Below are positions 8,431 to 18,616 of a stretch of 64,000 nucleotides of DNA, piece after piece (the stretch's first letter is position 1; the number at the start of each line of letters is the position of its first letter). The stretch is from Flavobacteriaceae bacterium (lineage in GTDB: Bacteria; Bacteroidota; Bacteroidia; Flavobacteriales; Flavobacteriaceae). The notes under the pieces were generated by a model. It saw nothing but the letters and a program-made list of their open reading frames with translations, ran no database searches and was not told where the DNA came from. The stretch is from positions 62,001 through 126,000 of the forward strand of contig CANKZI010000003.1 of NCBI GenBank assembly GCA_947488595.1. The letters are read 5' to 3'. The position numbers and the translations under genes are program-made.

Positions 8431-8439
8431 AGCAGTTGG

Positions 8440-8558
8440 ATTTGCGTTAGGGACAGAGGCGGCATCCTTTTTGTTTAAAATAGTCGTTTTGTTCAACGAA
8501 TTGGTCACCAACAAAAAGATACAGCCGATAGCCCGACCCTTGGGTAACGCCCAAAAAA
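8440..8558 (+). repeat. Structured hairpin repeat, copy A (between galK and galT)
   Basis: gacagaggcggcatcctttttgtt...aacaaaaagatacagccgatagcccgaccc; 9-bp inner stem ctttttgtt/aacaaaaag plus flanking gcggcatc/gatacagc; homologous to reverse complement of element at 17474-17565. Confidence 0.6.
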
Positions 8559-14950: not shown

Positions 14951-17404
14951 CTAACTACCACACATCTCACACTCATCGGGATCGGCGTTTTTTGCCAACT
15001 CGATCATGGCGCGGTATTCGTCGGCAGACATCGCTTCGGGTTCGTTTAAAACCGCAACAGGTTGTGGCTTTTCGAATCCCGAGACAGTGGCTTCAGTAAC
15101 GGCTTGTTGCTGGACTTCGATAGGTTCGGCTTTTTTGTCGTTGTTTAAAGTAAATTTAATGGCGTCAACTGCGGCTTTGGTTCGCAGATAGTACATTCCG
15201 GTTTTTAGTCCCGATTGCCAAGCATAAAAGTGCATTGAAGTCAGTTTTGCATAGCTGGCATCTTGCATGAACAAGTTCAGCGATTGCGACTGATCGATAA
15301 AATAACCGCGGTGGCGCGACATGTCGATAATGTCTTTCATCGACATTTCCCAAACGGTTTTGTATAATTCTTTTAAATCTTGTGGAATCGCATCGATGTT
15401 CTGAACCGATCCGTTGTGACGCATGATTTCTTGCTTTAAATCTTCGTTCCACAAACCGTGTTTTACCAAGTCTTCAAGCAGGTGTTTGTTGACCACAATG
15501 AATTCGCCCGACAAAACGCGTCTGGTATAAATATTAGAAGTATAAGGTTCAAAAGCTTCGTTGTTTCCTAAAATCTGTGAAGTCGAAGCAGTTGGCATCG
15601 GCGCCACCAAAAGCGAATTTCTCACGCCGTGTTCTATGACTTCTTTTCGCAAAGACGCCCAATCCCATCGGCCCGAAAGTTCTTCGTCTTTCATTCCCCA
15701 AAGGTTGTGTTGGAATTCGCCCTGAGATATCGGCGACCCTTTGAAACTGGAATACGGGCCTTCTTCTTTTGCCAATTCCATCGATGCAGTTACTGCGGCA
15801 AAATACAAAGTCTCAAAAATTTCTTGGTTCAGTTTTTTGGCTTCATCCGACGTAAAAGGCAATCTCAAAAGTATAAAAGCATCTGCCAAACCTTGAACGC
15901 CCAATCCAACAGGACGGTGGCGCAGGTTAGAGTTTTCGGCTTCCTTTACCGGATAATAATTGCGGTCAATTACTTTATTCAAATTGCGTGTCACACGCTT
16001 TGTCACACTGAACAACAATTCGTGGTTGAATGCGCCGCCATCAACAAACATTGGCAACGAAATTGAAGCCAAGTTACAAACAGCAATTTCATCTTTGGAG
16101 GTATATTCCATGATTTCGGTACACAAATTCGAAGAGCGAATGGTACCTAAATTTTTCTGGTTTGATTTTCGGTTCGCCGCATCTTTATACAACATATAAG
16201 GCGTTCCGGTTTCTATTTGCGATTCAAGGATTTTTTCCCACAATTCACGTGCTTTTATCGTTTTTCTGCCTTTTCCACGGGTTTCATAATCGATATACAT
16301 TGTTTCAAATGTATCTCCATAAACGTCGTACAAACCTGGACATTCATTCGGACACATCAAAGTCCAGTAGCTGTCGTCTTGCACCCGTTTCATGAACAAA
16401 TCAGAAGTCCACATCGCAAAAAACAAATCGCGTGCGCGCATTTCTTCTTTTCCGGTATTCTTTTTCAAATCCAAAAATTCAAAAATATCGGCATGCCAAG
16501 TTTCTATATAAATCGCAAAACTGCCTTTGCGTTTGCCACCACCTTGGTCTACATAACGCGCGGTATCATTAAAAACACGCAACATCGGAACAATTCCGTT
16601 AGAGGTACCGTTGGTGCCACGAATATACGATCCCGTTGCACGAACGTTGTGGATAGACAATCCGATTCCGCCTGCCGATTGTGATATTTTAGCCGTTTGT
16701 TTCAGCGTATCATAAATACCATCGATGCTGTCGTCTTGCATTGCCAATAAAAAGCACGAAGACATTTGCGGTTTTGGTGTTCCAGCGTTGAACAAAGTCG
16801 GTGTCGCGTGCGTAAAAAACTTTTTCGACATCAAATCGTAGGTTTCTATTACCGATGTCAAATCGTCCAAATGAATACCTACTGCCACACGCATTAACAT
16901 GTGCTGCGGACGTTCCACAATTTTGCCATTGATTTTTAGCAAATACGAACGCTCTAAAGTTTTGAATCCAAAATAATCATAATTAAAATCTCGGGTGTAA
17001 ATTACATGCGAATTCAAAAATTCGGCATGCTCCATAATTACTTTGTGCACTTCTTCCGAAAGCAATGGAGCCTCTTGATTGGTTCTCGGATTGACATAAT
17101 AGAACATTTCGTTCATGGTTTCCGAAAAGGACTTTTTGGTATTCGAATGCAAATTCGAAATTGCGATACGTGCCGCCAATTGGGCATAATCCGGATGGGC
17201 AATGGTCATCGATGCGGCTGTTTCGGCAGCAAGATTATCCAATTCAGAAGTCGAAACCCCGTCATACAAGCCCTCGATCACGCGCATGGCAACTTTTACC
17301 GGATCTACCAAATAATTCAAGCCGTAGCACAATTTTTTGATTCTCTCGGTAATCTTATCAAACATTACAGGCTCTTTGTGGCCATCTCTTTTAACTACAT
17401 ACAT
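14951..17404 (-). CDS. nrdA: Ribonucleoside-diphosphate reductase subunit alpha
   Basis: ATP-cone [71 protein letters not shown]-terminal CEMCGS. Confidence 0.97.
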
Positions 17405-17473
17405 ACGCTAAAGGGTTTATGAAAACAGGAATCCCTTCACTGTTTTCGGGGTTATTTGTGATTTATTTATTTT

Positions 17474-17565
17474 TCAGAAGCCATCCCGGCTATCCGCTTT
17501 ATCTTTTGCTGGCTAAAAAAGCCAACAAAAGGATACCGCTGCTATCGGGGCTAGGGCATTGTGCA
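17474..17565 (-). repeat. Structured hairpin repeat, copy B (between nrdB and nrdA)
   Basis: gaagccatcccggctatccgctttatcttttgctggct-aaaaa-agccaacaaaaggataccgctgctatcggggctagggc; long stem-loop, homologous in opposite orientation to copy A. Confidence 0.65.
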
Positions 17566-17638
17566 AACAATACTGTTTATAATTGTGTTTTAACCAGTAA
17601 AAAAATCAAGAAATCAATTTTAAAGGCTTGTAATCGAT

Positions 17639-18616
17639 TTAAAATTCGGCGTCGAAACTAATTTTTTGCGATTCGGCATCGGTGCTCATCACACCTGCTT
17701 TTTGGTATTCGGCTACTTTCTTTTCAAAGAAATTGGTTTTTCCTTGAAGCGAAATCATGTCCATAAAATCAAACGGATTCAAAGTATTGTATTCTCTATC
17801 GCAGCCCAATTCTACCAAAAGACGATCGGTGACAAATTCCAGATATTGTGTCATTAATCCTGCATTCATTCCGATCAAAGAGACCGGAAGTGATTCGGTG
17901 ATAAACTCTCTTTCAATGCGCAATGCTTCGACAATAATTTCTCTGATTCTTGCTTTTGGCACTTTATTAACCAAATGGTGGTTGTGCAAATGCACTGCAA
18001 AATCGCAATGTACGCCTTCGTCACGAGAGATCAATTCGTTAGAAAATGTTAAACCTGGCATCAACCCACGTTTTTTTAACCAATATATAGAACAAAATGC
18101 CCCCGAAAAGAAGATGCCTTCAACTGCTGCAAAAGCAATTAATCTTTCGGCAAACGAATCAGATTCGATCCATTTTAAAGCCCAATCTGCTTTTTTCTTA
18201 ATGGCTGGAAAAACTTCCAAAGCATTAAACAATTCGTCTTTTTCAACTTCATCTTTCACATAAGTATCAATCAAAAGGGAATATGTTTCAGAATGAATGT
18301 TTTCCATCATGATCTGAAAGCCGTAAAAGAACTTCGCTTCGGCATATTGCACTTCATTGACAAAGTTCTCGGCAAGATTTTCGTTTACAATACCATCAGA
18401 CGCAGCAAAAAAAGCCAGTATATGCTTGATAAAATACTTTTCGTCATTGTTCAACTTATTGTTCCAATCGTTCAAGTCTTGCGACAAATCAATTTCTTCA
18501 GCAGTCCAAAAACTGGCTTCCATCTTTTTATACCATTCCCAAATATCATGGTGTTTGATTGGAAAAATAACAAATCTGTTTTTGTTTTCTTGTAATATTG
18601 GCTCTATCATTGACAT
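17639..18616 (-). CDS. nrdB: Ribonucleoside-diphosphate reductase subunit beta
   Basis: [60 protein letters not shown]-like diiron ligands. Confidence 0.97.

Follow-up and report, generated by a model that had tools for sequence, protein, structure and literature searches.

A dispersed Flavo-1 repeat and a separate candidate leader RNA between nrdB and nrdA in a Flavobacteriaceae bacterium

The gap between the ribonucleotide reductase genes nrdB and nrdA of a Flavobacteriaceae bacterium holds two separate structures, whose positions in the window (the whole analysed stretch of 64,000 nucleotides) are collected in Table 1 together with those of a related element between galK and galT. The larger structure, designated copy B, is an already known element at a newly seen location, a functionally unexplained repeat of the Flavo-1 family. 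It is probably a mobile repeat of Flavobacteriales with a constrained folded strand and little local role, a reading that draws on its family membership, on the dispersal of the family, on a strand-specific folding constraint and on gain and loss at the nrdB-nrdA site. The smaller structure is a hairpin in the nrdA leader, and on balance we lean towards regarding it as a new cis-acting RNA of Flavobacterium, genus-specific and present in single copy, with an invariant loop and a fully covarying stem, that would control translation or processing of the class I ribonucleotide reductase large subunit. Since 2010 Flavo-1 has carried the label of an sRNA without known function, and if it is indeed a mobile structured repeat, many annotated 'sRNA genes' would have to be read differently. 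The leader hairpin is a small, testable new candidate for a regulatory element in DNA precursor synthesis.

Copy B was identified with cmscan, in which the minus strand at 17479-17556 matches the Flavo-1 model RF01705 over its full length (model positions 1-76 of 76) with 64.3 bits and an E-value of 9.2e-12. Family membership was defined by a covariance-model score of at least 42 bits, the gathering score, across the full model; copy B belongs to the family on this definition and copy A, with 36.7 bits, does not. The long interrupted hairpin proposed in the preliminary description is thus real. The element lies in sense with both nrdB and nrdA inside their 234-nt gap, and its natural strand is the minus strand, the coding strand of both neighbours: this strand folds with a z-score of -2.42 (6 of 200 shuffles were equally good), and the plus strand, on which the hairpin had originally been written, reaches -26.8 kcal/mol (z -1.31). 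Folding energy alone is weak evidence for copy B; the covariance-model match is not. The names nrdB, nrdA, galK and galT given earlier to the neighbouring genes were confirmed by domain matches (PF00268 for NrdB; PF02867 and also PF00317 for NrdA).

Table 1. Positions of the genes and structured elements in the window.
Feature	Position	Strand	Evidence
nrdB, ribonucleotide reductase small subunit	17639..18616	-	PF00268, E 1.3e-111
nrdB-nrdA intergenic gap, 234 nt, with both structures	17405..17638	-	ORFs and gap extraction
Copy B, Flavo-1 (RF01705) subtype 1	17479..17556	-	cmscan 64.3 bits; fold -31.7 kcal/mol
nrdA leader hairpin region (model R1 match)	17415..17459	-	fold -11.4 kcal/mol, z -3.17; 62/88 congeners
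nrdA, ribonucleotide reductase large subunit, N-terminal ATP cone	14951..17404	-	PF02867 E 7.4e-216, PF03477 E 1.4e-15
Copy A, Flavo-1 subtype 2 (TTTGCGTTAGGGA ... AGCCCGACC ... GGTAACGCCCAAA), galK-galT gap	8439..8556	+	RF01705 36.7 bits

Copies A and B both match Flavo-1, copy A only weakly and below the gathering score; they differ in subtype and in orientation, copy A being antisense to galK and galT. Across the Flavobacterium genome (2.4 Mb in 61 contigs), 79 Flavo-1 matches were found, 72 of them above the cut-off. This count is approximate, being based on the scoring of 150 of 695 candidates, and includes two matches, at the ends of contigs C35 and C60, whose scores and positions are identical. 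This supplies the genomic copy number that had been proposed as a check and bears out the earlier view of copy B as one of a set of dispersed structured palindromic repeats. The flanks of all copies separate about 60 of subtype 1, to which copy B belongs and whose common ends are cTAGCCC.GAT and GC.GGAa...gctt..aaaAAA, from about 17 of subtype 2 (TTTGCGTNAGGGAT ... AGCCCGACC ... ACGCCC), the subtype of copy A. In subtype 2 an outer stem, pairing as GCGTNA/TNACGC, and a small second arm enclose the Flavo-1 hairpin; in copy A these parts were seen through comparison with about 16 similar copies, and the model matches only 8439-8542 on the plus strand. Subtype 2 scores lower and is in part below the Rfam cut-off, and inspection of the sequences, rather than a covariation test, suggests that it forms a three-way junction.

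The Flavo-1 RNA motif was described by Weinberg et al. in 2010 (PMC2864571) from the same host group, the Bacteroidetes, and congeners of the window genome carry it, with 0 to more than 80 copies per genome, a range typical of a mobile repeat. A pattern scan returned matches in Flavobacterium, Chryseobacterium, Halpernia, Epilithonimonas, Kaistella, Algibacter and Polaribacter. No similar DNA was found in phage or plasmid records, and the literature searched contained no report of a function.

Placement of Flavo-1 tracks the available intergenic gaps, with no preference for operon interiors. When genes were called with a simple ORF caller, 42 copies in the genome lay in tandem gaps, 22 in divergent and 9 in convergent ones; the other gaps of at least 60 nt in the same stretches numbered 56, 28 and 18, respectively. 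In the named genomes, the 91 readable copies fell into 57 tandem, 18 divergent and 16 convergent gaps, against 318, 77 and 66 other gaps. The enrichment within operons suggested in the preliminary description is therefore absent, a distribution that had itself been named there as the outcome that would count against it. Relative to neighbouring genes the copies show no bias towards the sense orientation. The left-hand gene points away from Flavo-1 in a ratio of 53:22 in the window genome; as a general trait this bias was discarded, the ratio in the named genomes being 52:39 (p 0.21). Between tandem genes the orientation in the window genome is 31:13, leaning opposite to that of the sense copies at nrdB-nrdA. 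Relative to the replication fork, Flavo-1 orientation is 88:120 (p 0.03) in four complete congeners, with origin and terminus placed roughly from sparse GC skew. In the published F. psychrophilum transcriptome, Flavo-1 matches are indistinctly sense or antisense to transcribed regions (PMC9723704).

Central stems vary widely among the copies, with pairing retained, and their mismatches are strongly asymmetric. In a symmetric palindrome alignment in which every mismatch was treated equally, G-U outnumbered A-C by 14:1 in the window genome and by 50:4 in 108 copies from the named genomes; with one count per distinct stem, G-U was favoured in 31 copies and A-C in 4 (p 3e-6). A G-U pair appears as A-C when the opposite strand is read, so the strand obliged to fold, either as RNA or as single-stranded DNA, is the Flavo-1 strand. 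Because the copies face either way relative to neighbouring genes, local messages are an unlikely source of this constraint, which would instead reflect selection acting during copying or on RNA from the element itself. Flavo-1 may accordingly be pictured as a dispersed intergenic DNA repeat, one strand of which is kept foldable into a long interrupted hairpin, that would spread through a putative mobilising activity recognising the folded strand, whether as single-stranded DNA or in the form of an RNA copy, such that the constraint would be imposed at copying and not by the adjoining gene. No enzyme mobilising Flavo-1 was identified.

The orthologous site was followed through 150 congeners, in which nrdA was found in 139 and 88 nrdB-nrdA gaps were readable. 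The element was intact and in sense in 32 of these gaps, a remnant in one and antisense in one, and was not detected in 54. Mapped onto a tree built from the ends of NrdB and NrdA, its presence requires 18 changes; many branches of this tree are weakly supported, so that the number of insertions is uncertain. A needed role at nrdA is not supported, with 54 of 88 congeners having no detected element there. Stems and loop lengths of the copies at this site differ widely, inspection of the 88 gaps by eye revealed no clean empty sites, and no target duplication was found. Being so volatile in its presence, Flavo-1 is not needed by nrdA. Its residence at this site is old in some lineages of the genus, yet it is dispensable; an early arrival in one part of the genus would have been followed by retention, loss or re-acquisition. 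In three of the gaps (L129, L302 and L309) other sequence is inserted within Flavo-1 and includes a similar piece, ATAGGAGTTCAGTGAA or a close variant, which may represent a further small mobile repeat lying inside the element.

A strict TTG-N17-23-TAnnTTTG promoter was found in 0 of the 88 nrdB-nrdA gaps of the congeners, which supports the earlier assumption that the two genes are likely co-transcribed. Copy B would then be transcribed within the nrdB-nrdA message, and for this reason it probably acts at most as a spacer hairpin, one that would shield the 3' portion of the nrdB segment once the message is cleaved. A stronger local role, in which copy B is a recruited Flavo-1 insertion selected in part of the genus as a functional intercistronic RNA of the nrdBA operon (a stabiliser of the nrdB 3' end or an nrdA attenuator), is a possible but unlikely alternative. 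It gains from the hairpin having been kept despite altered stems, from the absence of a promoter and from 32 of 88 congeners sharing both gap and orientation although tandem-gene orientation leans the other way; the sense orientation of 32 of the 33 intact copies could indeed reflect selection at the site, and counts against the mobile-repeat reading. It is opposed by the 54 gaps without the element, the 18 changes, the remnants and the one inverted copy, and by a distance from the nrdB stop codon that ranges from 16 to 281 nt. Less probable again is the view that each Flavo-1 copy encodes a trans-acting small RNA (Rfam type sRNA), copy B being one of about 79 redundant genes. Tolerance of G-U on one strand only would suit such genes, as would the opinion of the describing authors, who took Flavo-1 to be probably an RNA and probably without a cis-regulatory role (PMC2864571). 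Set against this are a very high and variable copy number and the many F. psychrophilum copies that lie outside transcribed regions (PMC9723704); neither the dispersal nor the context of the copies supports the published type 'sRNA gene'.

Two further explanations carry very little weight. Mobilisation as REP/BIME by a RAYT (TnpA-REP) transposase of Bacteroidetes subclass 2.6, for which atypical structures beside the genes have been reported (PMC6006769), seems improbable: the genome does contain a single RAYT-like Y1_Tnp fragment (L031, 1252-1701, minus strand, cut by the contig end), and this is followed by a different hairpin (gctggcgcgagcgtctcgctcgtgcc), not Flavo-1. Current dependence on RAYT was rejected, as the Flavo-1-rich genomes G003, G028, G029 and G042 have no Y1_Tnp gene, the RAYT-bearing genomes G032 and G017 have no Flavo-1, and 20 RAYT loci contain one Flavo-1 in total, about the density expectation and hence chance level. 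Most improbable of all is a transcription terminator between nrdB and nrdA. Copy B is a strong hairpin between two genes, as that would require, but a U-run follows it on neither strand (the flanks are GCTTCAAAAA on the sense side and GGGCTA plus variable sequence on the other), and convergent gaps are not enriched for Flavo-1. Taken together, a one-strand constraint that matches no gene orientation, a volatile orthologous site and independence from RAYT argue for Flavo-1 behaving like a structured repeat that is mobile. As a separate observation, L031 contains at about 598-715 another G+C-rich repeat, which looks like a decayed Flavo-1.

Specific control of nrdA would more likely come from the second structure of the gap, the leader hairpin, which is a better candidate for this role than Flavo-1. 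Its stem is formed by GAAAACAG (17447-17440) and CTGTTTTC (17428-17421), its loop AAGGGATT is invariant, and ACAAATAAC commonly precedes the stem. In the 62 gaps that contain it, the hairpin stops about 10-18 nt short of the nrdA start codon, a position suggestive of control over the translation of nrdA or the processing of its message. Among 48 aligned sequences, two-sided changes occur in 7 of 7 base pairs, with 41 two-sided cells against 14.4 in shuffled alignments (0 of 500) and at most 13 in slid versions; a stem that covaries beyond both controls at a fixed location marks it as a conserved RNA. The covariance model matches the window genome once (E 8.7e-6) and every positive genome exactly once, no searched Flavobacterium genome having more than one copy. 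In the first 40 genomes the model matched 13 times, by coordinates always next to nrdA, and 148 genomes of the order yielded five matches, all in congeners. The hairpin requires five changes on the tree, against 18 for Flavo-1, and is absent mostly from two clades with other leader sequences. Gaps without the AAGGGATT hairpin (among them L110-L113, L120, L260, L262, L272 and L277) have other, mutually similar nrdA leaders (e.g., ACACGCAATGTTTAAG...), which may be alternative structures. No Rfam match to the hairpin was obtained with cmscan, and no report of it was found in the literature searched.

Among known systems, the leader hairpin is comparable to the structured 5' regions of F. psychrophilum genes, which are likewise small leader RNAs of housekeeping genes; nrdA is not mentioned in the main text of that paper (PMC9723704). 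Flavo-1 resembles the REP/BIME elements associated with RAYT transposases, which are also dispersed intergenic palindromes and often lie directly downstream of genes. The REP/BIME label initially attached to the repeat nevertheless had to be abandoned in favour of Flavo-1: REPs are palindromes of 20-40 nt with a GTAG or CGTC end tag (PMC3733652) and are linked to RAYTs, whereas Flavo-1 elements are about 78-110 nt long, have neither tag (their two ends read TAGCCC...GGAAnnnGCTTC) and show no RAYT association. From the published Flavo-1 motif, copy B, which fits the whole model far above the gathering score, does not differ, and copy A and about 16 other copies differ by their extra outer stem and second arm and by a lower score.
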